Source of the DNA: Zygnema cylindricum
Taxonomy: Eukaryota > Streptophyta > Zygnematophyceae > Zygnematales > Zygnemataceae
DNA length: 64,000 nt
Assembly: GCA_037447655.1 (NCBI GenBank)
Contig: JBBHKE010003220.1
Span: 35,525-99,524, forward strand
Direction of reading: 5' to 3'
The translations under genes were made by a program, and so were the position numbers. Position 1 is the first letter of the stretch. The number at the start of each line of letters is the position of its first letter. Positions 28,189 to 62,569 of this stretch are shown here, one piece after another. The notes beneath the pieces were generated by a model. The model had not been told where the DNA came from, ran no database searches, and was given only the letters and a program-made list of their open reading frames with translations.

Positions 28189-28189
28189 T

Positions 28190-28545: not shown

Positions 28546-28548
28546 CCT

Positions 28549-28903: not shown

Positions 28904-28914
28904 CTCTTATATAT

Positions 28915-30376: not shown

Positions 30377-30379
30377 GGG

Positions 30380-35562: not shown

Positions 35563-35762
35563 GAATACGCTTGCGGCCTACGAAGTAGCTTTGGTTGGAA
35601 GGGTTGTGGTGTTGTGTGGTATCGTACTTCTGGTCCAGCACATGTTTCTGGTTTTTTTGTCCAAATGTTTCCGGTTCTAGACATTTTTTCCGGATATGGA
35701 CAGTTGTCTTAGTTTGGAGAGATGTTTGGCTGAAAGGCGTGTCACGTGTTGTGTACAACAGT

Positions 35763-35799
35763 TCCCTCCCTCCCTCCCTCCCTCCCTCCCTCCCTCCCA
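35763..35799. repeat. CCCT microsatellite
   Basis: About nine CCCT/CTCC units immediately left of the 40-bp satellite array. Confidence 0.9.
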
Positions 35800-40185: not shown

Positions 40186-40243
40186 GCGAGCTAGGCAGCA
40201 GAACGCTTAATGACAAGAAAAATAGTCACTAAAACTATCTTGG

Positions 40244-41339
40244 GTCACAAGGAACGGCAGTGCTTCCGAAAGAAATGGAGTTCCTAAAGAGATGATGCAA
40301 TATGCACTGTTCACCGGAGAAGGTGAAACGGCCGTGAATCCTCTCCCGCTGCAGCTTCTTTACCCTTGGGGACGCCGCACCCCGGAGAACCCGGAACGAC
40401 AGCCAACACGTCAAGCCCGATTAACCCCGGGATTATCATCCAATAGCAGAACCAGCAAATGGCAGCCATGGCTGCAGAATTGGCAGCGCTGCGATTAGGA
40501 TCGCCCTCAGGGACTCCCGCTCTGACGGCCGCCCTGAAACTCCACCGGAGAAAGCAGGAATTACTACAGAAGCGGGCGGAGCTTGAACAGGAAACCGCAG
40601 CGGGCGAAGACGATGACGAGGTGATGGGATGGGACATGGAACCTCCGAAAGCACATCACGCACAAACCTTCTTTTCGGGAGCCTGGAATGTCGGTGTGGG
40701 GGACAATCGCAGGCAGCTCCGCTACTCAACCTTGGCGCAACAAAGGGACAGGCAAAAGCTCGCTCCACGAGACCACAACATAAACGCTACTGGACCTCTG
40801 TCCTTCACCCCCAGGGTCGTCATCCTGAAAGACAACATAGGTCTCGGAATCAAATCTATAAACCCACCTCCACCAGCCGCAACGAAACTACCTCCGCGAT
40901 TCGAAAATTACAGGAAAAGCAAAACAAGGAACATGGAGGAACGAGAAAAGGAGGAAGAGACGCGTGACAACCAAGACTGGTTCGAAAAATATTTGGCGGA
41001 ACGCCTGGAGGATAACACGCCAGAAACGCCGCCCGCGCCAGAATCGGACCAAGAAATTGAGGAAGCAGGAGGGGGGGAGAAGCATCAACCGGTGGAACCA
41101 ACAGATTCCTCCAGTTCATCGCCGAAAGTTCAACCTCCTTCCTCCAAACCAGCAGTGATGTTAGTAAGGCATCTAATGCCTTACGCTCTCACTCACGTGA
41201 AAACACTCGCCTCTTCCCTTAACTTGTCGGAGGAAGTTCTCATCCAGGCCCTCGGAGAGGAAATCCATTAGGAGGGGAGAAACACCGAGCCGATCAGGCC
41301 AGATCCGTTTTTTGGTCAGCAGACCCAAAGACCCCTATG
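40244..41339 (+). pseudogene. gag C-terminal part and gag-pro linker, element A
   Basis: The frame opens with the tail of a CCHC knuckle (GHKERQCF), and the open run at 40,459-41,271 follows. That segment is Ala/Gln-rich and helical (MAAMAAELAALRL), then acidic (AGEDDDEVMGWD), then basic. It ends at a TAG created by a 1-nt deletion (CATTAGG here, CATTCAGG in B at about 53,886). After the deletion the same ancestral frame continues as FWSADPKTPM into the protease, so gag and protease were originally one reading frame. This region would supply nucleocapsid function and a spacer. Confidence 0.65.
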
Positions 41340-41900
41340 ATGGATAGGGACGACAAAACGTTATCTGTGGCTCTAATTCTCAACCGGACGGGGAATTTCA
41401 AACTCAACGGATACGGCGGGTATCAAGACGCAGTGGTTGATACAGGAGCACTCCCAAATCTAATCACCTCATCGGCTCTGTAGCAAATGCCTGAAGAACT
41501 CTGACCGGAAATCTTCCCCAGTGACATCTATCTAAGTACTGTTAGCAGTGGGAGCCAACCGGTACACGGAATAATCAAAGCTATGTTAATAGAGTTTGCC
41601 GACGACGCGGGTCAGAAGGTCCGAATTCAGCTTCCCTTCCTGGTGGTGGAAGGTAAGCAGTTTGAGATTTTATTGGGAATGGCCACCTGGACAAGAGTGA
41701 ATATAGGGTTAAGTGTGTGGAAGGAGCAGTTTACTGTTCGGGATCCTGAGGATCCCGAAGGAGTCAAGGTGGTGGTTCCTCTGGATCTATGGAATAGGGG
41801 GAAAGATAATGCTCCCGTCGCAGGATGTTATCTCGTTTATGCTTCTCACACACCCATGGAACTGCTCCCTAGCGCCACCGATATCGCAGACATAATATAG
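41340..41900 (+). pseudogene. Aspartic protease, element A
   Basis: VALILNRTGNFKLNG precedes the catalytic AVVDTGALPNLI (DTG intact at 41,439-41,447). Later motifs are LPFLVVEGKQFEILLG (the ILLG turn) and WTRVNIGLSVW. Two nonsense codons interrupt it (TAG 41,481, TGA 41,502), where B has CAG and CGA. The frame then stays open to TAG 41,898. In active elements the enzyme releases gag and pol proteins from the polyprotein. Confidence 0.75.
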
Positions 41901-41906
41901 CAATTC
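41898..41906 (+). promoter_or_regulatory. In-frame UAG between protease and methyltransferase, candidate readthrough site (A)
   Basis: TAG is followed by CAATTC and then continues in the same frame into the methyltransferase. Element B has the identical TAG-CAATTC at 54,515. Tobamovirus-type readthrough uses UAG followed by CARYYA, and this matches five of those six positions. It could set a Gag-Pro to Pol ratio. Confidence 0.5.
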
Positions 41907-43330
41907 CCTTTTTCCAAGCGGTGGGAAGAAGGATACCAGAACAGATTATTACAAATAACAAAACTTCGGCGGGAAGTGGACAAATCCTTGACAGCTGTTT
42001 TTGTGAAGGAAAAAGAACCTCGGTTGGAATCTTCGGAAGTTCCGCCCGAAAATCAAAAATTCAATCGACAAGTGGTGTCATTATATATCTCGGATTCTGG
42101 ACTTTGGATATTATCTTTATTTTCTGGAATAAGCCCGGACCTCAAAGTTGTCTTGAAGGCTGGGCATAAAGTGGAGTCATATGTGGCCGTGGAAATTTCA
42201 CCGGATGCTCGGGCTGTCAGTGAATACCGACTCCAACAACTCCACCAATTGTACCCCCAGCAACTTCCAGTATCGGCCATCTGCAGATCGCACCGAAGTG
42301 TCCCGCAAAATATAGACAATATCCTTAAGCCACATCTCACTATGCTGGAGCAGGTAGATTTGGTGATTGCAGGATGGCCATGTCAAGGATACTCTCTAGC
42401 CGGGAAAGGCGAGGGACATCAAGATAGCAGAAGTCGAACCTTCTTCCAGATGATCAAATTACTTTCCTGGCTATAGCAATCCCAAGACCAGCCAGTGGGG
42501 TACGTTTTGGAGACTGTCCACCCGGGAGATGATAAGAGAAAACAAGTCGCAAATAGCTGGAATAAAGTCAAGCATATTCTAGGAGCTCCACTTGTTTTCG
42601 ATGCGGCTCAACAGGGATCCAGGGCTCACAGAGTTTGGGCATACTGGACCAATTTGATACCTCTGTCAGTCTTGAACAAGCTCTTACAGAACCACAAAAC
42701 AGATCCCCAAATTACCCTGCAACAAATTTTAAGGACAGGGCGGATGGCTACTCCAGTAACTAAGGCTAATCGTCCCCCGTTCTTCCAGTGCAACCAACCA
42801 TGAGCACCTCGGCGAGCACTGCCAACATTGGTTTCCTTCCCCAATAGCCATGCGTATTGAAAGGGAGCGGCAGAATGATATTTGACAGCAAACGTGGAGT
42901 TTGGACAACGCCAACGGTGGAAGAACGAGAACAAGCCATGGGATTCCAACCAGCCAGAACGGCGGCACCAGGTATATCACACCTCCAGAGGTGTAGCCTA
43001 CTCAAACAAAACATGGATCTAAATGCAATAACATGGTTGATAAAACATTCTTTGGCCTTCTATAGCCTCCAGTCTCCGCAATCGAGGGATCGTTACCTTC
43101 AAGCTCCAAAGTTATTAGCGGTGTAGGCCCACTTACAGCTTGAGGAGCAGAGGGAGGCAAGAAAACAGTTTTTATCATCAAAATTTTCCAGTCCCAGCAT
43201 TTTACCGAAATTAAGGGATTCCTCGTTGGGGGGGAGCGGAGGCTCGGAGAGAGACAGCTTAGCGGAAGTTGTTAGCAGCAACATTCTACAGGGAGGAGTT
43301 GAGGTAGACCCGCAGGTAGGGATGGAATTC
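41901..43330 (+). pseudogene. DNMT3-like cytosine-5 DNA methyltransferase domain, element A
   Basis: Motif I ILSLFSGI and the acidic AVEIS lie at about 42,108-42,200. The catalytic loop VIAGWPCQGYS is at 42,364-42,396, so PCQ is intact. Motif VI has decayed to YVLETVHPG (N of ENV to T). Motif VIII is GSRAHRVWAYWTN, where DNMT3 enzymes have an AHRARYFWGN-like sequence, and EREQAMGFQ is in the C-terminal part. Nonsense codons at 42,474 and 43,124 and a 1-nt deletion near 42,873 break it. It sits between protease and reverse transcriptase, in the same ancestral frame. The function would be 5-methylcytosine transfer from S-adenosylmethionine. Confidence 0.85.
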
Positions 43331-44900
43331 GATATCTCCCGCTGGGGTAGACCCCCATAGGCCTGGGTAGCGGTGGAACCCGGAAAGATGGATTAGACCT
43401 TAGGGGAGTAGTTGGACCCTCAGCAAAAGGCCCAGCTCTCTGACCTGTTGGAGAAGAACAAACAAGTGTTCTCTTGGTCAGATACCGACGTAGGCATCTA
43501 CAAAGGAACCCTTTTTCGAATTGATTTAATAGACGAGACGTCTACAGTTTGGCAGAAGCAGTACCCTCTCAATTTCAAGGAAAAGGAGTTCATCACGGCA
43601 AAGGTACAAACTCTCGTAGAAGCCGGATTGGTTCAATAAAGTACCGGACTCCATGGATTTGCGTCTCCAACCGTTCTTCCACCCAAGAAGGACTCATCTG
43701 GGAAAACGGTAAACTTTTGGATGTGTGGAGATTACCAGATGCTTAACAGGGCAATGTACTTGACCGATACCCAATGCCTACCCCGGAAGAGATTTTTGAC
43801 TCGCTGGCCGGGGCCACCATTTACTCCACACTAGATATGAAGAATGGGTTCCACCACATTGCAATGGAGCCAAAGCACCGGGAAAGGACAGCTTTTTGGG
43901 CAGGGTCCAGGTTGTATGAATGGCTCTACATGCCATTCGGGCTGAAGAATGTGCCAGCCAAATTCCAACGTGCCATGGACGAGGCACTTCGGGGGATTGA
44001 TTCTGCACGGTGCTATATAGACGATGTTATTATCTTCTCGAAGACCTTCGAGGAACACCTGGAGCACATACAGATTGTACTCCGAGCTCTCCAAGCAGCG
44101 GGCTTGAAATGTCACCCGGGTAAGGGAATTTTTGGGGTGCAGAAAATTATTTACCTGGGACACGAAGTTACACCCGGGACAGTGGGTCCCCATATGGTCA
44201 AAGTTGCAGCCCTTGATGCCCTACCCCCTCCTCAGGACGTCTCTGCACTCCGCACATTTTTAGGCCTGGCTAACTATTATCGGAGATTCATCCCTGAATT
44301 TAGCAGCCACGCTCAGCCTCTGAACCAGTTGCTGCGGAAAGACCAGGAGTGGCAGTGGACGGAGGAGCAACAGATTGCCTTCCAGTTCCTCAAGGATTCC
44401 CTGAAGCAACACCCAATGCTCCGAATGCCTGATCACCAAAGACCCTTCCTCCTTTACACTGATTGGAGGCGGTTTGGATTGGGAGCTGTTTTAGCCCAAC
44501 TGGATGATGTTGGTGCCGAATATGTGGTAGCTTATGCCAGTAGGAGTAATAACTGAGCGGAGGGGAATAACAGCAGTTATCACGGGGAATTACTGGCGGC
44601 GGTATGGGCTATCCAACATTTCAGACCATACCTATAGGGAGTCCATTTCACTCTGATCACAGATCACCAGCCTCTTAAGTAGATTTTGAAAAACAGGAAG
44701 CTCACTGGCAAGCGCGCTAGGTGGGTGTTAATACTGCAAGAATATGACTTTGACATAATCTACCGGGCCGGAGAGATTCATGGGAATGCCGACGAACTTA
44801 GCAGAAATCCTGACCCTTCCACTAGAGATTCCACCAGGGCCTGCCATGATGAGGATCCTGAAATCAGTTTGGGACTCATTCGAGCTTCATCTGCCTTTAT
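43331..44900 (+). pseudogene. Reverse transcriptase and RNase H, element A
   Basis: The N-terminal part has PQQKAQLSDLLEKNKQVFSW and LVEAGLVQ (43,412-43,639). The palm is an uninterrupted run from 43,774, with MKNGFHHIAM, FGLKNVPAKFQRAM and the catalytic YIDDVIIFSKT (44,011-44,045). [15 protein letters not shown] is the connection. RNase H has LLYTDW, YASRSN, the TDHQ motif and the Ty3-type HGNADELSRNP. Order and motifs are typical of Ty3/gypsy. Stops at 43,358, 43,394, 43,409, 43,637, 44,554, 44,635 and 44,680 and a 1-nt deletion near 43,755 inactivate it. Confidence 0.85.
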
Positions 44901-46285
44901 TTGGCTTCCTCAATCTGGGGGGGAAATGTCTACTTTCTCTGCAGACGTGGAGGGGCAGGCGCGAATAGGGGCCGGACGGAAAGATATTTGGAACGATCCC
45001 GATGCACTCCAATCTGTCCTACAAGGTTTCCCTCTTCCGCATTTGTCAAGAGTGCAATTATCTCGGGTGCAAACACGAATGGCGGCATACGAGTGGGAAA
45101 GGGGCATCTTAATCCGGAAGTGGGCAAATGGGACGAGGAAAGTGGTCCCTCCCTCGGCCGACCGGGAGACTCTTATAATTAACCTTCACAAGCAGTGTGG
45201 CCATTTTTGGCAAAAACGGACCACCTCCTTGGTCGCAGGATCGTACTGGTGGCACGGGTTGCGGACCCAAGTCAACCGGATTGTGCAGACGTGTTCCTCC
45301 TGTGACCGAGTCAAAGCAGCTTTCGACAAAAAGGGAGGTGCTCAGCTTCATTCCCTTCCCATCATGGGGATGTTTTATCGGTGGTCTCTGGATCTGCTGG
45401 GTCCTCTCCCCTCTAGCAGACGAGGGAACCGCTTTGTGTTGGTAATGATAGAGCATTTTTCCAAGTGGATTGAATTGGTGGTCTTACCCAGGAAGGAGTC
45501 TAAGGCTATTGCGGACGCATTCTTGTAGAGAGTGCTTTCCCAATTGTGGGCCCCAGTCGAAGTTCTGACCGACCAGGGCTCCGAATTTGCGGGAGAATTC
45601 TCCAACTTGTTGGAATTGTTTCTCATAGACCACCGGTTGACCAGCCGAGACCACCCACAAGGCGACGGTTTGGCCGAAAGGTGCGTGCAGACAGTGAAGA
45701 GGTCACTGCGTAAATATGTCGTGGAAGAGGATCTAGGAGAGTGGGATAGAAGGGTGCCTTGGATCGCCATGGGGTACCGATTCAGCCGCCAAGCATCCCT
45801 CCACTCCTACAGTGCATATTTTATTTTGTTCGGACGGCAGCCCATCCTCCGCGGCGCTGCCTCGGCCTTTGCAGTGGTCCTTCCGGAGATGGACAACAAA
45901 AGAACGGTCGAAAAATTAATTGCCGACAGAGCCAAGGTATTTCACCGCGAAATGCCTTTGGCGATGGGGAATCTACAAGCAGCTCAGCACCGAGATCAAC
46001 TCTGGTATTCGCAACGCCGGAGCGGGAATTTTGTCCCGCGGCCACGCTGATTTCTACCTAGGGACTTCGTGTATCGGATGCAACAGAAAAAGGACACTCT
46101 GGACATTTCAGCGGGGAGGGTGATTTTGAAGGTAGTGGAAGTCTCCAATAAGGGGGTCTTTACACTTGAAGGGAAGGATGGGCGGAGGATCAAAGAAAAT
46201 CAAATCAATGTGGCTCCTTGTCACCTCCGGGGATTGGAAGACGAACCTACTTTCCACCTCACCTATTTTGCTGATCCCCCTTTGT
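44901..46285 (+). pseudogene. Integrase, element A
   Basis: The HHCC zinc domain reads LHKQCGHF...CSSC (45,185-45,305). Core acidic residues are in RWSLDLLGPLP, LTDQGSEF and DGLAERC, as expected for the D,D,E triad. TAG at 45,526 (CAA in B) and TGA at 46,048 interrupt it. GDFVYRM-like and RVILKVVEVSN sequences form the C-terminal DNA-binding part. The enzyme would insert cDNA into host DNA. Confidence 0.8.
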
Positions 46286-46446
46286 GCTCCTCCGAATGCC
46301 TCTCATCACCCTCCCAGAATTCTGTACTGGTTTGTGATCGATGCGACCAGTGTTGGCAGCAATCTTGTCTCCCCTCCTCTTCGGACCCTCGTCCTAAACC
46401 CCTCTGCTCTCTGGTTCTGCGGGAACTGCGAATTGGGGGGGTAATT
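46286..46446 (+). pseudogene. PHD-finger-like C-terminus of integrase, element A
   Basis: LCSSEC, then NSVLVCDRCDQCW, then QSCLP give the first Cys pairs of a PHD finger. The ligand His is Gln here (WQQSC) but His in B (WHQSC). A 1-nt insertion near 46,411 shifts the last pair out of frame; in the other frame it reads LWFCGNCEL. PHD fingers read histone H3 tails, so a role in choosing insertion sites would parallel the chromodomain of chromoviruses. This role is inference. Confidence 0.65.
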
Positions 46447-46482
46447 ATTCAACAGTCTTAGTCACAGTTGACTAAGAGGGGG

Positions 46483-46750
46483 GGAAATCAAGGACCCGGC
46501 TCCACCTCTAAGGATTCCCTCCCTTCCCCCGGCCAGGAGGGGAAAGGAGAGGGGGGGAGGAGATATCTTTCTCCCTCCCCAAGCACTCATCCCCACCTTT
46601 GCATGCTTGCTCACAAGAACAAGGCAGGCACCATTTAACACAAGCATGGTTGTGGGGAGCATTCGCATTCTGGGGAAGGGTGTTTACAAGCCTCCAATGC
46701 TAATTACCCGGGCAGTGGGCCCTCCTCTGATGTTTCCGGCACGCTCGATA
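46483..46750 (+). repeat. LTR-tail-like segment between polypurine tract and LTR
   Basis: It starts AAATCAAGGACCCGG directly after the purine run AAGAGGGGGGG and ends near GCACGCTCGA. Copies occur at 59,098-59,365, at 60,196-60,460, and inverted in the solo LTR (50,591 to about 50,880). In the solo LTR and at 60,460 this segment forms the LTR 3' end. Here it lies in front of the LTR start TGTCAAGC. Confidence 0.6.
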
Positions 46751-46752
46751 GC

Positions 46753-47945
46753 TGTCAAGCTCATGTGCTTGACAGGCACCCCTTTTATCTTACCAAGGAT
46801 TCCCAGGCCCTTTTTCCTCTGTACGGTCCTTAAAGTACGGGGAAAAGAGCGCACTCAGCTGAACCAGATTCTTTTATCTTCCTAACTGAACGGAACATAC
46901 ATGATTTTGCGCCTAACGGAGGCCGGACGACAAAGTTACTCCGTTCCAAAGATTCCCATCCTTTTACATGTGACCAGTTGCCAACTGTCCCATTGGGGGC
47001 TACATTGTGGAACGCCACGTAACTTTTGGGATAGTGTGGTAGATTTTGCTGTTGGCTATCAGTAGGACGTTAGTGCAGGTCCACCAGCCGAATAGAGCAT
47101 TTATTAATGTGGGTCAAAGTTCGGCGTTTCACGTCAATTTAGTACTTTGTTCCTCAGGATTGTGTCATAGAAAACCACGTGGCTTCTAATCTAGCCGGAG
47201 ATAGTCGCCTAACTTTTTACCCCGAGTGTAGTACAACCTGTTTTGTCTTATGTCCGGACGATAACAATTCCTGGCCGGTGATTGGCTCCTATTATTGCTT
47301 TGACTTTGGTACTATCGGTAGGACAAACTTGGCTTGTATAAGGCACTTGGGGCCGAAGGAGACAGGTTGCTGTTTCAGTACTGTCTCCTGAGAAAAACTC
47401 TAGAAATTCCAGCAAACTTTCTTGTGGAGAACTTTTGTTTTGCTTATGACTGTGACCCTATTGCCATCTTGGTTTGCATCCGTCCTTTGTGGAAATCGTA
47501 GTCCGGTTGGTTGGTTGGCACCGTCTTTCCTGTTTTGGGCGGTTTGGGGACTGGTGTTTGTTGGAAACCAAGAAGGGTCTTGCCGGTTCCGGGTTGCGGA
47601 AACCGAGGAGTTAAGGAGGCCCTACCTGTTCTAGGGTTTTCAGGGGGAGATTTCGTCTCCTTTTGGTTGTCCACGTTACGTTTTGGGGGTAGGTTGAGCT
47701 CGCTTGCTATTATTCCACATTCTAACTTTATATCTCTATTTTCTAAGGGCAAGGTGATATTGTTAATTCTAAGACAGCAATTTTATATTTCCATCCTTTC
47801 ATTTTTTTGAGTGGAAGCATCTGGGTTCTCTCTTTGGTAGTCCTTTTTGCAGCTCTGGTCGGGTTTCTTCCGGGGTCGATTACCAGAATCTTTTGTACCA
47901 GAATAGTGGATTTTGAGAGGATTTTTGTTAGGCTTCCAACAGATA
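46753..47945 (+). repeat. LTR shared by element A (3') and element B (5')
   Basis: It begins TGTCAAGCTCATGTGC and is colinear with 59,368-60,195 and with the inverted solo LTR. The right limit is uncertain: similarity to the solo LTR fades near 47,945, where an inverted copy of 47,350-47,395 starts (ACAGTACTGAAACA). The usual terminal GCTCGACA is not found here, so I cannot place the LTR end or primer-binding site with certainty. Confidence 0.55.
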
Positions 47946-48049
47946 GTCACAGTACTGAAACAACAACCTGTCTCTTTAGGTTAAAGAGGATAGGTGCTCA
48001 GATCGGAGTACTTTTATAAGGGGATTTAGATCTTCTTCTCCAGTCAGCT

Positions 48050-50590
48050 ATGGGGGGAGGAGAAGTCCAGGATAAGGATCTTCCGGGTGTCAGATCGGAC
48101 GAGCAAGAGAGGCAGGAAGCGGTGGCCCAGGAGGAAGAGTCACAGATGCCCGAGGAAGCACCCCCCTTTGGCTCACCTGTACACGTAGAGCGGTTTCTTA
48201 AGGGAGAGATGCCCCCAGAGGTTGCGGTTGACACTCCTCCTACGCACCGAGAGGGGAGACTCTCTCCTCCACCTCCACCTGTCTTTTCCCCCGAGAACTT
48301 CCCAACGTTGTCCGAGTCAGCCAGAGCTAGGGCTGCGGAGAAGGCGGAGAGGCCGCCCTTATCCCCTAAAAGCCGTAGAAAGGGGTTGGCCCACAAGGAA
48401 GCGGTTCCTGGTCACCTTCCCGAGATCGGGCACTATACCCGATCTAAGGCACCGATAGCAGAAATGTACATGGATCCTAAGATCCTGACCGATCCTACCC
48501 AGCCAGGTCGCAAAGAAATCTCAGCCCTTCATGATCTCTATGAGTTAAAGGTTAATAAGGAGTTGGTGCAGCGGGTGGCCCGGTCAGATCGAGCCAGAGT
48601 GGTACGTCCAGTGGGAGGTGTAGTGGAGATACTCAGCAGTTCATCCGAGAGTGGCTCCCCAACCTCCGTACTAGAGCAACCAGGAGGACCATCAACTTCC
48701 TACCAGCAAACCACCCCATCTCCGGACACCACACCCAACAGGCCAGCTTACGGCAGGGCGGTCCCTCGAACACGAGCCGGGGAAGGGACCAGCAAGCGAG
48801 GGTTACCCGAGCCAAAGAAGGGGTACAGGTTCGATCATCAGGACCGCAAGGGCAGGTTCCCTCCCCGACCTAAAGCAAAACCGTTCTTCCCTTCCGATTC
48901 CACCTCTCCGAGCTCAAAGTCTCCTTCTGCTCCTGTGGTTTCGACCATCAAAGGGGTTGTGGCGTTCTACACCCACCGATCCCGAGGTATCGGGTTTGGG
49001 GATTGCAGATCTCTCAGTGGTGGTGAGCAGTACACAAAAAGTGGTTGACATCTTGCGATCCCAGAGTCAATCTACGGCGGGGGCTGGACCCGTCACCATT
49101 GATTAGGAAGCTCTTGAAGAAGAGAGGAAGAGGGCCCTCGAACAGGTATTGTTCCTCATAAGGGAGGCTAGACGAATATCAGGAGGGATCCTTAGTGGAA
49201 AGGTAGCTCCTCCTAGAGAGACAGGTCCCTCGGCTGAGAGACAACCTACAGTGCAGACAACCCTTACGGAGATGCCAGCTCCCGGGATTTCTTCGGAACT
49301 TAGACCGGAGCCTCCTCTTCAGCGGGAAGGGGGGGAAACAACATGACCTAACAAACAGGGGATGGGTGCAGATTTACCGGATAACGTTGTAGCCGCCTCC
49401 GCTAAGCGTCCTACTGTTGTCTCAGTGGCTGGGTCTTCAACTGCGGAGGCCGTGGTATTATTACAACCCGACCAGAGACAACACATCTCCCTTGGGCTTT
49501 CCACTCCTCCTCCATCTCCACCTCAGGCATCATCTCCTTCGCCTTCTGTTTCTCCGGCTGCTGCAGTCCGTGGGTCACCAGGACCACCTGTCTTACCCTA
49601 CAAGTACAACGTTCCTGCCTACTCTCCTCCCCACCGACGTTCTCCCGATTCCAGCGAAGGAACTCCTCCACCAAAAACCTACAGAAGGCGTACACGGAGA
49701 CAGACACCTTTCCCTCGTAGTCTTCATTCATCTCCCTCCCCTTCTCCACCAATCCCTCAAGGACCACCGGTGATTGAACCTATTCTCCACATTCCCTCGG
49801 TGGAAACAGTTCGCCGAGAGGAACGAGCCTCTCCTGGGTATAGAGGAGCCGGACTTCGGGCAGCTTTTCCCAAGGTGATAAGCTCCTTGTTTCCCAAGGG
49901 CCAACTCCAGAGAGATACACGTCATCTCACTATCCCACCAGTAACCGGAGCTTCCTCAGTGGGGGGGAGTGCCATCTCTCGTCAAGCAGCTCCTTCTACC
50001 GGAGAAGGAGGAGGCTCCGAGCCACCCGACGCGGATCCCGGGGTAATTTCACCGGTTCAGTTTGTCAGCCCCACCGGACCACCCTCTTCTCAGTTCACCA
50101 ACCTTGCAGAGGAGGAAAAAGAAATGGGGGACGCGAGGATCTTTACAGGAGATAGCTCGGGAATCGCTTTCTCTGATTTCGAATTGCTGTGGAAGTCGTT
50201 CACCCAATCTGAAATCAACAAATACAGGGGCGGAGCCATTCCGGATGACTTCGAGACCACGCTTTTCCCCATGATGGTGAACTATCTTGCTGGTGGAGCT
50301 TTGGCAGACTATAAGGAGCGACAACCTCTTGTGATGGCTCCCAGCATCAAAATATCAGACCCTATCCTTGATGAGGCAGTCTTGCAGCCGGAAGCAGACT
50401 TGGCTGCCGCTGCAGCCGCCCCTGTCACCGCCCTCTTCACAGAGGACATGAAACTGCAGGCACAAGGACGAGCCTACGTCGCTCAGCTTCAGGCCATCCA
50501 GGAGGCCAGGGCAGCCACTCGGATGGTTGCAGACCCAACCCCCTATACCACTCTTTTGAATGCCTGGAGACTCCTTTACACCGAGAGGAA
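48050..50590 (+). pseudogene. gag N-terminal and capsid region, element B
   Basis: Two long frames (48,050-49,048 and 49,362-50,590) plus a linking frame at 49,149-49,346 encode a Pro/Ser/Glu-rich N-terminal region (PPPPPVFSPENFPTL, PPPSPPQASSPSPS). A capsid-like segment follows: SDFELLWKSFTQSEINKYRG, MMVNYLAGGALADYKERQPL and PYTTLLNAWRLLYTER. Stops near 49,046, 49,106 and 49,344 and a frame change near 49,000 break it. The capsid frame is cut at 50,590 by the solo LTR and resumes at 52,059 in the same frame. Gag would form the particle shell. Confidence 0.65.
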
Positions 50591-52054
50591 TGTCGAGCGT
50601 GCCAGAGAAACATAAGGGAAGGGCCCGCTGCCCGAAATGGCCGGTCTCGGCGTCCAGCAAAGAACCCACCAATGCGAATGCTTCCCATAATAATGATAAT
50701 GCCCACTGCTGACCTTATCCCTCCCAACAAGAATGCATGCACAGATAGGAGAGGCACAAGGACAGGGAATAGGGATGAGTGCATGGGAAGGCGAAAAGAT
50801 CTCCCCTCCCCCTTACTTTCCCCATTAAGCCGGGGAAAGGGGTTGGGTTCTCGGTAATCGGGTGGGTGCCCCAATTTGTGCTTATTCCACAGGAAGTCTA
50901 TAGCATTCGTTCCCTCAAAACCCACTGTTTCGATGCCAGGAAATTGCAGTTTTACCCCGGGAAGTCCCCCCCAAAGCAAAAGAGACTAAAAGTGAAGACA
51001 CAAATGCACTACCTCGTGGACATATAAAAATAAATATGAATGGTTGTTTCAGATTTAACAATATCACCTTGACCACAGAAATAAAATATAAGATGGAAGA
51101 TATAAAAGATGGCGAAGACAGCTTAACATACCCCGGCAATTTACGATGACAATGGGAGAAAGGCGAAATCTCTCCTGATGGCAGTGTAAATAGCTATGGT
51201 ACTCCTTCAACCCTCGGTGTCCGCAGCTCAGAACCGACTAGACTCTTCTCAGTTTCAAACAGCGAAAAATCCAAAAATCACCCAAAGGGACGGTAGTGCC
51301 AACCACCAGCCCAAACTATGATTCCCAAAATGGACAAATCCAAAACAGAGATGGCAATAGAGTCAAACAACACAAAGATTCTCCAAAAGAAGGTTTGTTG
51401 GAATTTCTGAGGGTTTTCACAGGAGACAGTACTGAAAAGCAATCTGTCTCCTTCGGCCCCAAGCGCCTTATACATCAAAGTTTGTCCAAAATCAGGTCCA
51501 AAAGTCAAACCTACACTATTAGCCAATGAGCGATTAGCAACTGCAATCAAACTGACATAAGACAAAATAATGTGTACTACTCTTGGGGCAAAATGTTGGA
51601 CCTCTGACCACGGCTAGATCCGTGGCCGGAAGTTATTATTTCTTCCACAGTTTTTAAGACAAAGTACTAAAAAGACACGGAAGTGCCAAGCTTTGACTTA
51701 ATGTAATTAATTAACCACTGGTCAGCTGAATCTGAACTGAATTGCTACAGACACCTAACAGCAAAATCTAGATTACACTCCGGAAGTCTACGTGACAATC
51801 CACAATGTACCCTCCACTAGGGCTGGTGGAAGCTAGTACTATGTGACGGAACTGCGATCTTTCAGACGGTAGAACTTTGTCGTCCAGCCTCCGTTAGGCA
51901 CGAAACAAAGTGCGTCTTGTTCAGTAGAGGAAATACTTCAATCCTACCGGCAGGTTGTGCGGGCTTCTCCGAAATCTGAGAATAGTACGGGTCCGAAGGG
52001 TACGGAAATCCTCGGTAATATAGAAGTGTGCTTGAAAAGCACTCGAGCTTGACA
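50591..52054 (-). mobile_element. Solo LTR in reverse orientation inside gag of element B
   Basis: The insert begins TGTCGAGCGTGCC and ends CTTGACA, giving TG...CA ends, and is flanked by the 4-bp repeat GGAA. Removing it with one GGAA restores an open gag frame across the junction (TER then NESAIKEF). In reverse complement it is homologous to 46,753-47,945 followed by the segment also seen at 46,483-46,750. It is more diverged from the other LTRs than they are from each other. The 1,464-bp insert carries no internal domain. Confidence 0.8.
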
Positions 52055-53930
52055 GGAATGAATCTGCTATCAAAGAATTCACGGAATTCCGTTGCCAAAA
52101 TAGTGAAACACCCCAGACTCGTTTTAACAGATTGTCTAGCCTCTGTCAAAAGACCAAACTCTCAACCATTGATCTTCCGGCCATGGCAACCAAATATTTC
52201 ATCGCCATCCGAAATTCGTTCGGACCGACGGGGCAGGCAGCCCTCGATAATTGGATTGCTGGACACGCCATCCAGGACGTCAATCCAACCGCCAAAGAAA
52301 TCTCTCTGGCCGCCATGAAGCTTTATGATCACTTTGTCCACCGCGAGGCCCAGGAAAAAGCGGTAATCAGGAAAACCCGAGGGAACTTTGCACGATTTGC
52401 CGGAGAAATGCCTCCCGAACATGAAGAGTCGGCCGAACTCTTAGCCTTGCGGAATCTCAAGGGGAAACAGGTGGTGGATAGCGGATCCGAACCTGCCATG
52501 GGGGCCGATGACCGTGTCTTCCTCTATAACTGTTTAAACTGTCAACAAACAGGTCATGGATGGAAGCGATGCCCCCGGAAGCTCAAACAGGAATTAGCTC
52601 TTAAGTAGAAGGAATGGGAGAAGGAGAGAGCTGAAAGAACAAAGAGGCAGCAAGAAAGGAAGCAAGGAGGAGTGTCAGACGATAAAACACCGGTGAACAA
52701 AGACAATTACCGGCCGACGCCACGATCTGAGACTGCAAAGATGTCACAAGCCCAATTGCGACAGATAAAACTTCCAAAATTTGATGACGCGCAAATCTCA
52801 AATGAATTGCAGGGCAAATATACCACCGAAGGCTCCAAGTGTGAGGCTTGCGGTTTCATGGGTCATTAGGAAGGGCAGTGCTTCTGAAAGAATGGAGTTC
52901 CTAAAGAGATGATGCAATATGCACTGTTCACCGGAGAAGGTGAAACGGCCGTGAATCCTCTCCCGCTGCAGCTTCTTTACCCTTGGGGACGCCGCACCCC
53001 GGAGAACCCAGAACGACAGCCAACAGGTCAAGCCCGATTAACCCCGAAGGTTATAATCCAACAACAGAGCCAGCAAATGGCATCCATGGCTGCAGAATTG
53101 GCAGCGCTGCGATTAGGATCGCCCTTCAGGACTCCCGCTCCGACGGCCGCCCAAAAACTCCACCGGAGAAAACAGGAATTATTACAGAAGCTGGCGGAGC
53201 TTGAACAGGAAACCGCAGTGGGCGAAGACGATGACGAGGTGATGGGATGGGACTTGGAACCTCCTAAAGCACATCACGCACAGACCTTTCTTTCTGGAGC
53301 CTGGAATGTCGGTGTGGGGGACAATCGCAGGCAGCTCCGCAATACAACCTTGGCGCGGCGAAGGGACAGGCAAAAGCTCGCTCCACGAGACCACAACAGG
53401 AACGCTACTGGACCTCTGTTCTTCACCCCCAGAGCCATCATCTTGAACGACAACATAGGTCTCGGGATAAAATCTAGAAACCCATCTCCACCAGCCGCAA
53501 CAAAACTGCCTCCGGGATTCGAAAATTACAGGACAACGAACACAATGAAGATGGAGGAACAAGCAAAGGAGGAAAAGATGCGTGACAACCAAGACTGGTT
53601 CGAAAATTATTTGGCCGAACGCTAGGAGGATAACAAGCCAAAAACGCCGCCTGCGCTAGAATCCGACCAAGAAATTGAGGAAGTAGAAGGGGGGGAGAAG
53701 AATCAACCGGTGGAACCAATAGATTTCTCCATTTCGGTGCCAAAAATTCAACCTCATTCCTCCAAACCAGGAGTGATGTTAGTAAGGCATCTAATGCCTT
53801 ACGCTCTCACTCACGTGAAAACACTGGCCTCTTCTCATAACTTGTCGGAGGAAGTTCTCATCCAGGCCCTCGGAGAGGAAATCCATTCAGGAGGGGAGAA
53901 ACACCGGGCCAATCAGGCCAGATCCGTTTT
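52055..53930 (+). pseudogene. gag C-terminus (capsid end, two zinc knuckles, linker), element B
   Basis: Capsid continues from NESAIKEFTEF through FNRLSSLCQKTK and AALDNWIAGHAI. The first CCHC knuckle is CLNCQQTGHGWKRC (about 52,531-52,572). A TAG at 52,606 separates it from a basic, Gln-rich stretch. The second knuckle CEACGFMGH is interrupted by TAG at 52,867 (AAG in A) before GQC. The linker from 52,909 matches A (MASMAAELAALRL) and has another TAG at 53,623. A 1-nt deletion near 53,958 shifts out of the protease frame. Two knuckles indicate a nucleocapsid that binds element RNA. Confidence 0.7.
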
Positions 53931-54517
53931 TTGGTCAGCCGACCCAAAGACACCTATGAAAATAGGGACTTCAAAACGTTATCTGTGGCTCTAATTCTCA
54001 ACCGAACGCGGAATTTCAAACTCAACGGATACGGCGGGTATCAAGACGCAGTGGTCGACACAAAAGCACTCCCAAATTTAATCACCACATCGGCTCTACA
54101 GCAAATGCCGAAAGCACTCCGACCGGAAATCTTCCCAGTGACATCTGTCTAAGTACTATTACCAGTGGGAGCCAACCGGTACACGGAATAATCAAAGCTA
54201 TGTTAATAGAGTTTGCTGACGACGCAGGTCAAAAGGTTCGAATTCAACTTCCCTTCTTGGTGGTGGAAGGTAAGCAGTTTGAGATTTTATTGGGAATGGC
54301 CACCTGGACAAGGGTGAATATGGGATTAAGTGTGTGGAAGGAGCAGTTTGCCGTTAGGGATCCTGAGGATCCAGAAGAAGTCAAGGTGGTGGTTCCCTTG
54401 GATCTATGGAATAGGGGGAAAGATAATGCTCCCGTCGCAGGATGGTATCCCGTCTATGCCACACGCACACCCACGAAACTGCTCGCCAGCGCCACCGATA
54501 TCGCAGACATAATATAG
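53931..54517 (+). pseudogene. Aspartic protease with damaged catalytic motif, element B
   Basis: The sequence matches A, but the active site reads AVVDTKALPNLI: the invariant Gly of DTG is Lys (about 54,060). A 1-nt deletion in a C run near 54,132 moves the second half (54,200-54,514, LPFLVVEGKQFEILLG) to another frame. It ends at the same TAG as A. The enzyme cannot be functional in this copy. Confidence 0.75.
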
Positions 54518-54523
54518 CAATTC
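54515..54523 (+). promoter_or_regulatory. In-frame UAG between protease and methyltransferase, candidate readthrough site (B)
   Basis: Identical in position, frame and following hexamer (CAATTC) to the TAG at 41,898 in A. It is the only nonsense codon I find shared by both copies. Confidence 0.5.
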
Positions 54524-55879
54524 CCTATTTCTAAGCGGTGGGAAGAAGAATACCAGAACATATTATTACAAATAACAAAACTTTGGCGGGGAGTGGACAA
54601 ATCCTTGACAATTGATTTTGTGAAGGAAAAAGAACCTCGGTTGGAATCTTCGGAAGTTCCGCCCAAAAATCAAAAATTCAATCGACAAGTGGTGTCATTA
54701 TCTATCCCGGATTCGGGACTCCGGATATTATCCCTATTTTCTGGAATAAGCTCGGACCTCGAAGCTATCTTGAAAGCTGGGCACAAAGTGGAGTCATATG
54801 TGGCCGTGGAAATTTCACCGGATGCTCGGGCCGTCAGTGAATACCGACTACAACAACTCCACCAATTGTATCCCCAGCAACTTCCGGTATCCGCCATCTG
54901 CAGATCCCACCGAAGTGTTCCGCAAAATATAGACCAGATCCTGAAGCCACATCTTGCTATGCTGGAGCGCGTGGATTTGGTGATTGCACGATGGCCATGT
55001 CAAGGATACTCTCTAGCCGGGAAAGGCGAGGGACATCAAGACAGCACAAGTCGAACATTCTTGCAGATGATCAAATTACTTTCCTGGCTGCGACAGTCCC
55101 AACACCAACCAGTGGGGTACGTTTTGGAGAATGTCCACCCCGGAGATGATAAGAGGAAACAAGTCGCAAATAGCTGGATTCAAGTCAAGCACATTCTAGG
55201 AGCTCCACTTGTTTTCGATGCGGCGCAACTGGGATCCAAGACTCACAGAGTACGGGCATACTGGACCAATTTGATACCTCAGTCAGTCTTGAACCAGCTC
55301 TTACAAAACCACCAAACTGATCCCCAGATTACCCTGCAACAAATTTTAGGGCCAGGACGGATGGCCACTCCGGTAACTAAGGCTGATCGTCCTCCGTTCT
55401 TCCAGTGCCACCAACCAGGAGCACCACGGCGAGCACTGCCAACATTGGTTTCCTTCCCCAACAGCCATGCGTATCGAAAGGGAGCGGCCGGAATGATATT
55501 TGACAACAAAAGTGGAGTTTGGACAACGCCAACGGTGAAAGAACGAGAACAAGCCATGGGATTCCAACCGGCCAGTACGGCGGCACCTGGTATTTCAGAC
55601 CTCCAGCGGTGCAGCCTACTCGAACAAAGCATGGATCTAAATGCAATAACTTGGGTGATAAAACATTCTCTGGCCTTCCCTAGCCTACAGTCTCCGCAAT
55701 CGAGGAATCGCTACCTTCAAGCTCCAAAGTTGTTAGCGGTGCAGGCCCACTTGCAGCTTGAGGGGGGGAGGGAGGCAAGAAAACTGTTTTTATCATCAAA
55801 ATTTTCCAGTCCCAGCATTTTACGGAAATTAAGGGATTCCTCAATGGGTGGAGCGGAGGCTTGGAAAGGGATAACTTAG
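54518..55879 (+). CDS. DNMT3-like cytosine-5 DNA methyltransferase domain, element B, open frame
   Basis: An uninterrupted frame of about 453 codons. Motif I RILSLFSGI (about 54,720-54,748), acidic motif II VAVEISPDARA, the catalytic loop VIARWPCQGYSLAGKGEG (PCQ at about 54,994-55,002), SRTFLQMIKLL, motif VI YVLENVHPG (ENV intact, about 55,126-55,140), motif VIII THRVRAYWTNLIP (about 55,243-55,280), then LQQILGPGRMATPVTK and EREQAMGFQPASTA. The order I-IV-VI-VIII-X is canonical, as in DNMT3, not the permuted order of plant DRM, although LSLFSGI and VEIS also recall DRM. No PWWP, ADD or UBA domain is seen. It would use AdoMet to make 5-methylcytosine, perhaps on the element cDNA. The Gly before WPCQ in A is Arg here. 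The end is set by a 1-nt deletion near 55,848. Confidence 0.85.
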   Translation, partial: QFPISKRWEEEYQNILLQITKLWRGVDKSLTIDFVKEKEPRLESSEVPPKNQKFNRQVVSLSIPDSGLRILSLFSGISSDLEAILKAGHKVESYVAVEISPDARAVSEYRLQQLHQLYPQQLPVSAICRSHRSVPQNIDQILKPHLAMLERVDLVIARWPCQGYSLAGKGEGHQDSTSRTFLQMIKLLSWLRQSQHQPVGYVLENVHPGDDKRKQVANSWIQVKHILGAPLVFDAAQLGSKTHRVRAYWTNLIPQSVLNQLLQNHQTDPQITLQQILGPGRMATPVTKADRPPFFQCHQPGAPRRALPTLVSFPNSHAYRKGAAGMIFDNKSGVWTTPTVKEREQAMGFQPASTAAPGISDLQRCSLLEQSMDLNAITWVIKHSLAFPSLQSPQSRNRYLQAPKLLAVQAHLQLEGGREARKLFLSSKFSSPSILRKLRDSSMGGAEAWKGIT

Positions 55880-57501
55880 CGGAAGTTGTTAGCAACAGCA
55901 TTTTAACGGGAGGAGATGAGGTAGACCCGCAGGTAGAGATGGAATTCGATATCTCCCGCTGGGGTAGACCCCGGAGTCCTGGGCAGCGGTGGAACCCGGA
56001 AAGATGGATTGGACCTTAGGGGTGCAGTTAGACCCTCAACAAAAGTCCCAGCTCTCCGACCTGTTGGAGAAGAACAAACAAGTGTTCTCCTGGTCAGATA
56101 CTGACGTAGGCATCTACAAAGGAACCCCTTTCCGAATCGATTTAATAGACGAGACGTCTACTGTTTGGCAGAAGCACTACCCTCTCAGTTTCAAGGAAAA
56201 GGAGTTCATCACTACAAAGGTACAAACTTTGGTAGAAGCAAGATTGGTGCAAGAAAGTTCCGGACTCCATGGATTTGCGTCTCCAACCGTTCTCCCACCC
56301 AAGAAGGACTCATCTGGGAAAACGGTAGACTTTCGGAAATGTGGAGATTACCGGATGCTTAACACGGCAACTTTACCTGAATGATACCCAATGCCTACCC
56401 CGGAAGAGATTTTTGACTCGTTGGCTGGGGCCACCATTTACTCCACACTAGACATGAAGATTCGGTTCCACCAAATCGCGATGGAGCCAAAGCACCGGGG
56501 AAGGACAGCTTTTTGGGCAGGGTCCAGGTTGTATGAATGGCTCTACATGCCATTCGGATTGAAGAATGCGCCAGCCAAATTCCAACGTGCCATAGACGAG
56601 GCACTCCGGGGGATAGACCGTGCACGGTGCTATATCGACGATGTTATTATTTTCTCGAAGACCTTCGATGAACACCTGGAGCACATACAGATAGTACTCC
56701 GAGCTCTCCAAGCAGCGGGCTTGAAATGTCACCCGGGTAAGGGAATTTTTGGGGTGCAAAAAATTATTTACCTGGGACACGAAGTTACACTCGGGACAGT
56801 GGGTCCCCATATGGTCAAAGTTGCAGCCTTTGATGCCCTACCCCCTCCTTAGGACGTCTTTGTACTCCGCACATTTTTAGGCCTGGCTAACTATTATCGG
56901 AGATTCATCCCTGAATTTAGCAGCCACGCTCGGCCTCTGAACCAGTTGCTGCGGAAAGACCAGGAGTGGTAGTGGACAGAGGAGCAACAAATTGCCTTCC
57001 AGTTCCTCAAGGATTCCCTGAAGCAACACCCAGTGCTCCAAATGCTTGATCACCAAAGACCCTTCCTCCTTTACACTGATTGGGAGCCGGTTTGGATTGG
57101 GAGCTGTTGTAGCCCAACTGGATGATGCTGGGGCCGAATATGTGGTAGCTTACGCAAGTAGGAGTAATGACCGAGCGGAGGGGAATTACAACAGCTATCA
57201 CGGGGAATTACTGGCGGCGGTATGGGCCATCCAACACTTCAGACCAGACCTATACGGAGTCCGTTTCACTCTGATCACGGATCACCAAACCCTCAAATGG
57301 ATCATGGAGAACAACAAGCTCACTGGCAAGCTCGCCAGGTGGGTGTTAATACTGCAGGAATATGACTTCGACATAATCCACCGGGCCGGAGAGATTCATG
57401 GGAATGCGGACGGACTTAGCAGAAATCCTGACCCTTCCACTAGAGATTCCACCGGGGCCCGCCATGATGAGGATCCTGAAATCAGTTTGGGAATCAATTG
57501 A
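55880..57501 (+). pseudogene. Reverse transcriptase and RNase H, element B
   Basis: PQQKSQLSDLLEKNKQVFSW, KPxD-like KKDSSGKTVDFRKCGDYRML (55,989-56,384), then LDMKIRFHQIAM, FGLKNAPAKFQRAI and YIDDVIIFSKT (56,629-56,661). RNase H: LLYTDW, TDHQTLKWI, FDIIHRAGEIHGNADGLSR (57,370-57,425). Stops at 56,382 (TGA; CGA in A), 56,850 (TAG; CAG in A) and 56,970 (TAG; CAG in A) and a frameshift near 57,085 break it. The RNase H part is otherwise better preserved than in A. Confidence 0.85.
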
Positions 57502-58896
57502 GCTGTCTCTGCCTTAATTTGGCTTCCTCAATTTGGGGGGGAAATGTCAACTTTCTCTGCAAACGTGGAGGGGCAGGGCGCCAATAGGGGCCGGACGGAA
57601 AGATATTTGGAACGATCTAGAGGCTCTCCCATCTGTCCAACAAGGTTACCCTCTTCAGCATTTGTCAGAAGTGCAATTATCTCGGGTGCAAACACGAACG
57701 GCGGCATACGAGTAGGAAAGGGGCATCTTATTTCGGAAGTGGGCTGATGGGACGAGGAAAGTGGTTCCTCCCCCGGCCGACAGGGAGATTCTCATTTTTA
57801 ACCTTCACAAGCAGTGTGGCCATTTTGGGCAGAAACGGACCACCTCCTTGGTCGCAGGGTCGTACTGGTGGCACGGGTTGCGGACCCAAGTCAATGGGAT
57901 TGTGCAGACGTGTTCCTCTTGTGACCGAGTCAAAGCAACTTTTGACAAAAAAGGAGGTTCTCAGCTTCATTCCCTTCCCATCAAGGGAATGTTTTATCGG
58001 TGGTCTATGGATCTTCTGGGTCCTCTCCCCACTAGCAGACAAGGGAACCGCTTTGTATTGGTAATGATAGAGAATTTTTCTAAGTGGATCGAATTGGTGG
58101 TCTTACCCAGGAAGGAGTCCAGGGCGATTGCGGACGCATTCTTGCAAAGAGTGCTTTCCCAATTTGGGGCCCTGCCGAAGTTCTGACCGACCAGGGCTCC
58201 GAATTTGTGGGAGAATTCTCCAACTTGTTGGAATTGTGCCTCATAGACCACCGGCTGACCAGCCGAGACCACCCACAAGCCGACGGTTTGGCCGAAAGGT
58301 GCGTGTAGATAGTGAAGCGGTCACTGCGTAAATATGCTGTGGAAGAGGATCTAGGAGAGTGGGATAGAAGGGTGCCTTGGATCGCCATGGGGTACCGATT
58401 CAGCCGGCAAGCATCCCTCCACTCCTACAGCCCATATTTCATTTTGTTCGGACGACATCCCATCCTCTCGGCGCTGCCTCGGCCCAAGCAGTGGTCCTTC
58501 CGGAGATGGACAGCAAGGGAACGGTCAAAAAATTGATTGCCGACAGTGCCAAGGTATTTCACCGAGAAATGCCTCTGGCCATGAGGAATTTACAAGCTGC
58601 TCAACACCGAGATCAACTCTGGTATTCGCAAAGCCGGAGCGGGAATTTTGTCCCGCGGCAACGACAATTTCTACCCGGGGATTTCGTGTATCGGATGTAA
58701 CAGAAAAAGGACACTTTAGATATTTCAGGGGAGAGGGTGATTTTGAAGGTAATGGAAGTCTCCAATAAGGGGGTCTTGACAATTGAAGGGAAGGATGGGC
58801 GGAAGATCAAAGAAAATCAGATCAATGTGGCTCCCTGTCACCTCCAGGGATTGGATGACGAACCTACTCGCCACCTTACCTATTTTGCTGATCACC
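57502..58896 (+). pseudogene. Integrase, element B
   Basis: HHCC zinc domain LHKQCGHFGQKRTTS...CSSC (57,801-57,920), RWSMDLLGPLP, LTDQGSEF and DGLAERC as the D,D,E core, then GDFVYRM and the C-terminal basic part. TAG at 57,713 (TGG in A), a 1-nt loss near 58,172, TAG at 58,306 (CAG in A), and TAA at 58,698 (CAA in A) interrupt it. Confidence 0.8.
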
Positions 58897-59060
58897 CTTT
58901 GTGTTCCTCCGAATGCCTCTCATCTTCCTCTTAGAATTCTGTACTGGTCTATGATCGATGCGACCAGTGTTGGCATCAATCTTGTCTCCCCTCCTCTAGG
59001 GACCCTCGTCCTAAACCCCATGCTCTCTGGTTCTGCGGGAACTGCGAATTGGGGGGGTAA
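58897..59060 (+). pseudogene. PHD-finger-like C-terminus of integrase, element B
   Basis: LCSSEC, a TAG at 58,932 (CAG in A), NSVLVYDRCDQCWHQSC and LWFCGNCEL. One ligand Cys of A is Tyr here (VYDRC), but the ligand His and the final C-x2-C with the preceding Trp are intact. Read together with A, the Cys4-His-Cys3 pattern of a PHD finger is complete, with WHQSC and WFCGNC as in canonical PHD domains. Confidence 0.65.
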
Positions 59061-59367
59061 TATTTCAAAGTCTTAGTCACAGTTGACTAAGAGGGGGGGA
59101 AATCAAGGACCCGGCTCCACCTCTAAGGGTTCCCTCCTTTCCCCCGTCCAAGAGGGGGAAAGAGAGGGGGGAGGGGATATCTTTTCGCCCTCCCCAAGCA
59201 CTCATTCCCACTTTTGCATACATGCCCATAGGAACAAGGCGGGCATCATTAGGCACAAGCATGGTTGTGGGGAGCATTCGCATTCTGGGGAAGGTTGTTT
59301 GCAGGACTCCAATGCCAATAACCCGGGCAGTGGGCCCTCCTCCGATGTTTCTGGCACGCTCGACAGC

Positions 59368-62556: not shown

Positions 62557-62569
62557 CTCCCTTTATTTT

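Follow-up and report, generated by a model that had tools for sequence, protein, structure and literature searches.

The 64-kb window, meaning the whole stretch of DNA analysed, holds two tandem copies of a Ty3/gypsy element (identity of 91.6% between 40238-47580 in copy 1 and 52856-60196 in copy 2), and in both a C5 cytosine methyltransferase (DNMT) is preceded on its 5' side by a protease-like region and followed on its 3' side by a Ty3/gypsy reverse transcriptase (RT). The domain order of the family is gag, protease region, UAG, DNMT, RT, RNase H, integrase and PHD-like domain, and the RT, RNase H and DDE integrase of a Gypsy Pol are all present. Pfam matched the RT in copy 2 and likewise the integrase; the protease piece of copy 2 matched no Pfam family, and the protease was called from a DTG-type motif in another genomic copy (L032) and a purpose-built profile of our own. 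Homology to other copies in the same genome confirmed that the protease-like region and the RT flank the DNMT. Together with the Pfam and profile results given below, this bears out an earlier note, made from the letters of the window, which placed a DNMT3-like enzyme between protease and RT of a Ty3/gypsy polyprotein. Both copies are decayed, and from their sequences we take neither to be active. A Copia element adjoins the DNMT element, and an Rfam scan of the whole window gave no match at the gathering threshold.

Table 1. Features of the two element copies (window positions).
Feature	Position	Strand	Basis
Protease region, copy 1, frame broken	41071..41897	+	homology
In-frame UAG, copy 1	41898..41900	+	comparison of copies
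DNMT, copy 1, broken	41901..43168	+	Pfam, dN/dS, homology
RT, copy 1, broken	43322..44298	+	homology
RNase H, copy 1, with stops	44341..44880	+	homology, dN/dS set
Integrase, copy 1, with stops	44971..46080	+	homology, dN/dS set
PHD-like C-terminal domain, copy 1	46201..46440	+	homology
Repeat B, copy 1	46484..46751	+	repeat comparison
Repeat A, 5' side of copy 2 (= 3' A of copy 1); start = TGTCAAGC	46752..47580	+	repeat comparison
gag, copy 2, first part	49653..50609	+	80% to L032 gag frame
Nested related element (A, leader, B) inside gag, flanked on each side by GGAATG, approximate ends	50591..52055	-	repeat comparison
gag, copy 2, second part, zinc knuckle	52036..52902	+	76% to L032 gag
Protease region, copy 2, frame broken	53689..54514	+	60-76% to L032, three pieces; no Pfam match
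In-frame UAG then CAATTC, proposed readthrough site, copy 2	54515..54517	+	locus comparison
DNMT3-type C5 cytosine methyltransferase, copy 2, open	54518..55783	+	motifs, Pfam, profiles, homology
Reverse transcriptase, copy 2, with stops	55959..56915	+	Pfam, dN/dS, homology
RNase H, copy 2, frame broken	56958..57495	+	homology
H2C2/DDE integrase, copy 2, frame broken	57590..58697	+	Pfam, homology
PHD-like C-terminal domain, copy 2	58818..59057	+	62.5% to L032 C-terminus
Repeat B, internal, copy 2, after purine tract	59099..59366	+	repeat comparison
Repeat A, 3', copy 2	59367..60196	+	repeat comparison
Repeat B, terminal, copy 2	60197..60464	+	95.15% to internal B

The repeats of copy 2 are split direct repeats in the arrangement A-coding-B-A-B, with one A repeat shared between the tandem copies. 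At two further loci (L034 and L036) A starts abruptly with no B ahead of it, marking A as the 5' start; no A was found at the 5' start of L038. One other 3' end was read (L035), as B-A cut within A; the reads of L037 and L039 missed the element end. The second B repeat is known from the window copy alone. Neither repeat A nor repeat B of the window type was matched in copies L031-L033.

The copy search, run on the host assembly (352.8 Mb, 2,689 contigs), returned 93 scored DNMT matches at 61-100% identity, both window copies included, and 13 of the 93 had no stop inside the matched stretch. In L031 and L032 the DNMT, RT, RNase H, integrase and PHD-like domain lie, unmended, in a single open frame (1,520 and 1,525 codons in the two copies), along which the domains were placed by Pfam on L032 and by our own profiles on both. 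The gag of these two copies is uninterrupted where that of copy 2 holds the nested element. Gag and protease do not share one unbroken frame in either L031 or L032, so the upstream product is a predicted one: the protease-side frame of L032 runs unbroken for 279 codons up to the UAG, that of L031 has one additional upstream stop, and that of L030 has a stop within 60 codons. A second DNMT family of the same genome (L060) has the same domains with no stop between them. Other copies share both the PHD-like end and the in-frame UAG, and these two features, named in the earlier note, are real. Against the Pfam PHD model, whose cut-off is 24 bits, L032 falls short at 17.5 bits and L060 scores 38.1 bits.

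The DNMT frame of copy 2 (54518-55879, 453 codons) is open and contains LSLFSGI, VEIS, WPCQGYS, ENV, HRVRAYWTN and EREQAMGF. The broken copy 1 has the same motif series, as the earlier note had it, with the exception of two strings, which read ETV and HRVWAYWTN there; copy 2 itself has ARWPCQ where the open copies have AGWPCQ. The C5 methyltransferase profile proposed as a check (Pfam DNA_methylase) matched copy 2 (E 5.5e-9) and the first piece of copy 1 (1.7e-9), both above the curated cut-off. In profile comparison DNMT3A scored best (2.8e-23), ahead of DRM (7e-13) and HhaI (1e-9), and by this measure the element's DNMT is closest to DNMT3. The affinity follows from these scores and not, as had been argued, from the motif order: the order I-IV-VI-VIII belongs to unpermuted C5 methyltransferases at large. 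The element's enzyme has this unpermuted order, unlike DRM.

Purifying selection acts on the DNMT, and in open copies it is somewhat weaker than on the RT. Between the window copies, dN/dS of the DNMT was 0.245 in the coding frame, and reading it in either shifted frame raised the ratio to 0.75 or 2.27; dN/dS of the RT was 0.291. Among open copies the DNMT ratio ranged from 0.072 to 0.249 (the 6 of 15 pairs that yielded a ratio); the pair L031-L032 gave 0.137 for DNMT versus 0.098 for RT, and near-saturated pairs gave 0.07-0.08 versus about 0.02. Because of the 93 matches and the contrast between coding and shifted frames, the methyltransferase frame is not a chance one. A one-off insertion of a host gene, or a dead remnant, as the decay of both window copies might suggest, is hardly credible given these matches, the 13 stop-free ones and dN/dS of 0.07-0.25; the domain is common to the family, as the earlier note had supposed.

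The stop ahead of the DNMT is itself conserved. TAG stands directly before the DNMT at 35 of the 38 distinct scorable loci and CAATTC follows its position at 36 of the 38, whereas no other in-frame stop, indexed by codon over the first 424, is shared by more than 3 of 25 loci. UAG CAAUUC is kept across subfamilies, and 6 of the first 8 degenerate conserved codons just after the UAG, a stretch picked after the data were seen, are identical in four subfamilies, compared to 58 of 230 over the DNMT overall. In L032 a single stop is all that separates the protease region from the DNMT, the two being in the same frame. General reassignment of UAG to sense is ruled out because no in-frame stop occurs inside the 1,520- and 1,525-codon frames. 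The plant-virus type I readthrough motif of tobamoviruses is given as UAG CARYYA (PMC5382211); the element's site, predicted from sequence, shares UAG and CAAUU and differs at the sixth base (C here, A there), agreeing at five of six places and thus falling outside the type I motif. Single-sequence folds after the UAG were unremarkable (shuffle z of 0.45 in copy 2 and -1.58 in copy 1). An alignment fold of 11 copies gave a weak hairpin right after CAA, in which every change was a wobble change and one cell was broken, and two small hairpins farther on, with two-sided changes in 5 of 13 predicted pairs.

From this pattern we infer programmed readthrough of the UAG. Most ribosomes would halt there and release the protease-side product, and the few that pass would add DNMT, RT, RNase H, integrase and PHD-like domain; readthrough being minor, small quantities of DNMT would be made together with the RT and would enter the particle with it. 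There it would most likely methylate new double-stranded cDNA before or at integration, with CG as the proposed target by analogy with tested relatives, and the PHD-like domain beside the integrase may recognise histone marks where the element inserts. Taken as a whole, this reading (a multicopy Ty3/gypsy element with A-coding-B-A-B split direct repeats that captured a DNMT3-type enzyme as a functional component of its polyprotein, reads through the UAG and methylates its cDNA) is in our judgement probable.

Self-methylation of cDNA is an unproven part of it. De novo CG methylation by SymbioDIRS-Dnmt3 has been demonstrated in yeast, and no methylation was seen with the Gypsy DNMT of Klebsormidium in the same test, a result its authors judged inconclusive (PMC5890265). 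CpG observed/expected is 0.64-0.70 in the element, 0.61 in the adjacent Copia and 0.89 in the second DNMT family; transitions at CpG are only 1.15-1.72 times as frequent as other G/C transitions, and those at CHG have the higher rate. By these comparisons CpG depletion is non-specific and we rejected it as evidence of self-methylation, and the methylation of cDNA or daughter copies suggested in the earlier note finds no specific CpG signature in the element. The same lack of specificity is compatible with a DNMT that targets host chromatin or RNA, or slows the element to a tolerable level, as raised in PMC5890265; we consider this unlikely, since a DNMT made in one product with RT and integrase would be expected to act on the cDNA or the integration site. 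Somewhat less likely still is that the UAG merely ends the upstream product and the Pol frame is expressed otherwise (spliced or subgenomic mRNA, reinitiation, internal entry). The case for readthrough is a comparative one, its UAG context is one base off the type I motif, and the gag and protease frames of L031 and L032 are broken; against this stand the single in-frame stop between protease region and DNMT in L032, the conservation of nucleotides after the UAG beyond protein need and the stop-free sister family L060. Programmed readthrough is the reading we retain.

Relatives were found in Marchantia, Calypogeia, Sphagnum, Closterium, Chlamydomonas eustigma and metagenomes, and fall into two clades, A and B, that correspond to two DNMT positions. 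In clade B (e.g. P0087-P0093, P0096 and P0054 of Chlamydomonas eustigma) the DNMT sits after RNase H and before the integrase; the clade shares with the window element a homologous DNMT and a Gypsy integrase and, in most longer members, also RT and PHD finger. In some Marchantia and metagenome models the frames begin 5' of the protease and stop short of the RT. One scan of viral contigs with a six-protein alignment gave 21 pattern matches, none confirmed, and nine plasmid records gave weak matches, to bacterial methyltransferases where annotated. As a tentative scenario, DNMT-bearing Gypsy elements may be an old, widespread green-lineage group in which a single DNMT capture was followed by relocation within the polyprotein, giving the two clades, and whose lineages tuned its dose, by a readthrough stop here, a single Gag-Pol frame in L060 and frames ending before the RT in those models. 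If so, the PHD finger beside the integrase would equip the element to read chromatin state as well as write it. Why elements retain a type of enzyme with which their hosts silence them becomes testable in this family through its open copies, its candidate dose-setting recoding signal and a signal-free sister family in the same genome, with relatives in liverworts and moss that include the laboratory model Marchantia polymorpha.

The precedent for methyltransferase-bearing retrotransposons named in the earlier note is real: KnitGypsy-Dnmt3 of Klebsormidium nitens and SymbioDIRS-Dnmt3 of Symbiodinium are already published (de Mendoza et al., 2018; PMC5890265), and beyond that paper and PMC12344493 our full-text searches listed no paper on a DNMT in LTR elements. 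SymbioDIRS-Dnmt3 resembles the window element in its Dnmt3 domain within Pol, split direct repeats and two coexisting domain orders, as described there, but it is a DIRS element with a tyrosine recombinase; the H2C2 and rve (DDE) integrase of the window element sets it outside DIRS. KnitGypsy-Dnmt3, compared by description, is closer: a Gypsy Pol containing a DNMT3-related domain, A-coding-B-A-B repeats and purifying selection agree, and the window element could be the same, already described family in another host. We hold this to be doubtful, since KnitGypsy-Dnmt3 is described from one species, the main text of PMC5890265, figures and supplements aside, mentions neither readthrough nor a PHD finger, and three protein searches returned no named Klebsormidium (K. 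nitens) protein. A stop directly before the DNMT, two positional clades and bryophyte members were not found in our full-text searches of openly available papers. The kind of element is known from KnitGypsy-Dnmt3 and SymbioDIRS-Dnmt3; its layout, with the stop before the DNMT, and its presence in moss and liverworts look new.

The two Ty3/gypsy copies lie in tandem with a spacing of 12.6 kb and an identity of 91.6%, and comparison with other copies from the same genome gave the order gag, protease region, UAG, DNMT, reverse transcriptase (RT), RNase H, integrase and a PHD-like end for copy 2. Both copies are decayed; all stops within the compared domains are private to a single copy, except one that is due to a frame break. 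The earlier note had read the domain between protease and RT as a DNMT3-like cytosine methyltransferase. The C5 methyltransferase profile, Pfam DNA_methylase, matched above its curated cut-off in both copies. Against solved structures, a single DNMT sequence ranked DNMT3A first (E 1e-8), and a 20-member family profile again placed DNMT3A on top (2.8e-23), followed by 3C and 3B, with plant DRM (7e-13) and HhaI (1e-9) lower and DNMT1 absent among the matches listed. Motifs IV, VI and VIII and later conserved blocks are mostly retained in the 20 members. The window piece gave no Pfam match for a protease; this assignment is based on a DTG-type motif in L032, another locus of the assembly, and on a custom profile to which the window piece was itself one of the inputs.

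Features of the window (window coordinates)
Feature	Position	Strand	Remark
Host-like genes	12000-31000	-	legume-lectin domain PF00139 (E 8.6e-33); several weak PAN-like matches; three blocks resembling one another at about 12.5, 23.2 and 28.5 kb
Array of ~40-base repeats	35758-40183		long; immediately upstream of truncated copy 1
Copy 1	from ~40238		5' side truncated
Copy 2	46752-60464		nearly complete
Repeat B	46484-46751; 59099-59366; 60197-60464
Repeat A	46752-47580; 59367-60196
Nested element in gag	50591-52055	-	repeat A at start, repeat B at end, leader between; GGAATG flanks both sides
Ty1/Copia element	60600-64000	-	adjoins copy 2; RVT_2 frame of 476 codons open up to window edge

The family has many copies in the assembly (352.8 Mb, 2,689 contigs). 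All 93 candidates scored out of 2,004 in a protein search matched, giving at least 93 matches at 61-100% identity, both window copies included, and 13 of them have no stop in the matched stretch; in a Pfam search, 123 of 782 candidates were scored and all 123 exceeded the cut-off. Two loci are open 3' of the UAG, L031 for 1,525 codons (domains called by custom profiles) and L032 for 1,520, the latter with DNA_methylase, RVT_1, RNase H, H2C2 and rve over the Pfam cut-offs and a PHD of 17.5 bits, below the cut-off of 24. The protease-side frame of L032 (279 codons) is unbroken up to the UAG and that of L031 has one additional stop; gag and protease share no single unbroken frame in either. In a second DNMT-bearing Gypsy family of the same genome, L060 (G000:C1344:85500-95000; L060 1-9501) has a single frame of 2,395 codons with a weak zinc knuckle, protease (custom profile), DNA_methylase, RVT_1, RNase H, H2C2, rve and PHD (38.1 bits), and runs from protease to DNMT without an intervening stop. 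Its motif IV reads ECQ rather than PCQ, as does that of the Closterium protein P0020.

The UAG recurs across the window family. Among 30 fetched loci, the 25 whose match begins at residue 1 or 2 were scored (it begins later in L019, L020, L022, L024 and L027), and the codon preceding the DNMT was TAG in 22 and TAA in two, the upstream part being rearranged in one. Stop positions are identical within the pairs L007/L009 and L015/L016, which may be duplicates. Adding L031, L032, window copy 1 and ten more loci, all distinct (L040, L041, L042, L047, L050, L052, L053, L057, L058, L059) gave TAG in 35/38 and CAATTC in 36/38; this set leaves out the repeats L045 (= L032) and L051 (= L004), the unscorable L046, L048, L049 and L056, and the second family (L043, L044, L054, L055, L060). 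No other in-frame stop recurs at the same codon index in more than 3 of these 25 loci. The first 30 bases after the UAG are nearly invariant in 11 copies. Of the first eight conserved codons 3' of it that are degenerate, a stretch picked after the data were seen, 6 are identical in four subfamilies, versus 58/230 across the whole DNMT.

Between copies 1 and 2, dN/dS was 0.245 for DNMT, 0.291 for both RT and RNase H, 0.26 for one part of the integrase and 0.45 for another, 0.356 for protease and 0.526 for the gag-like region, and 0.75 and 2.27 in the shifted DNMT frames. Six open DNMT frames, including that of copy 2, gave 0.072-0.249 in six of 15 pairs, the other nine being saturated. Constraint was stronger on RT than on DNMT between L031 and L032 (0.098 versus 0.137), and RT values were 0.021-0.025 in two near-saturated pairs of open copies.

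Three protein searches, two of which limited scoring to the 8,000 candidates with the most words in common, retrieved 102 relatives, with Marchantia polymorpha, Calypogeia fissa, Sphagnum fallax, Closterium sp. and Chlamydomonas eustigma as the named hosts and no named Klebsormidium protein. With six proteins from this genome, custom profiles assigned 55 of 108 to class A (DNMT after protease or before RT) and 30 to class B (after RT/RNase H or before integrase), with 22 unclear and one conflicting. A single branch divides A from B (SH-aLRT 99) in a tree of the 88 proteins with sufficient DNMT length (42 A, 26 B, 20 unlabelled), as it does in another tree of 45 (100/99) and in a tree built on the RT of 19 proteins (9 A, 10 B; 99/96). 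Since RT splits likewise and mean A-B identities are similar (DNMT 0.37, RT 0.35, integrase 0.40), one DNMT capture followed by relocation within the polyprotein is a possible history that fits these trees, which contain neither DNMT-free Gypsy elements nor host DNMT genes. P0007, labelled as a bacterial Candidatus Obscuribacterales MAG, falls within the clade-A side; the label is probably a misplacement through binning error. Several class A models (P0069-P0082) with protease and DNMT frames stop 77-137 residues past the DNMT, before RT; if they are complete, RT lies there in a different frame and DNMT would be produced at the Gag level. Some Marchantia models, P0058, P0060, P0061 and P0066, continue into RT.

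CpG observed/expected was 0.64-0.70 in the window's DNMT family. The L060 family had 0.89 and window 1-35700 had 0.96; Copia gave 0.61 in the adjacent element and 0.22 and 0.82 in two other pieces. CpG depletion is not specific to the DNMT-bearing family. CpG transitions were 1.15-1.72 fold over other G/C transitions, and CHG transitions were equally frequent or more so.

From the repeat positions, copy 2 reads A-coding-B-A-B. Its two B repeats are 95.15% identical and its A repeats (A1, A2) 92.4%, not above the between-copy level (92.0%), so the 5' A may derive from copy 1. Among further copies, the 5' regions of L034 and L036 start abruptly at A without a preceding B, and A was not seen in that of L038; at the 3' side, L035 shows B-A, cut inside A, and the regions of L037 and L039 do not include the element end. 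Neither A nor B of the window type was matched in L031, L032 or L033. The nested element, ~69% related and with a short target duplication, is possibly a non-autonomous derivative.

A full-text literature search returned no description of a UAG before DNMT, of two positional clades or of bryophyte members. DNMT-bearing retrotransposons as such have been known since 2018, and a 2025 survey mentions DNMT3 inside LTR Copia and DIRS elements (PMC12344493). For the Symbiodinium element SymbioDIRS-Dnmt3, de novo CG methylation by the DNMTs was demonstrated in yeast, and for KnitGypsy-Dnmt3 of Klebsormidium nitens the same report gives no methylation in yeast, a result its authors judged inconclusive (PMC5890265). 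Methylation of cDNA was also proposed there (PMC5890265). The type I readthrough site of plant viruses is UAG CARYYA (PMC5382211), whereas the element here has UAG CAAUUC. The repeat layout of copy 2 is like that of KnitGypsy-Dnmt3, A-coding-B-A-B according to its figure legend (PMC5890265).
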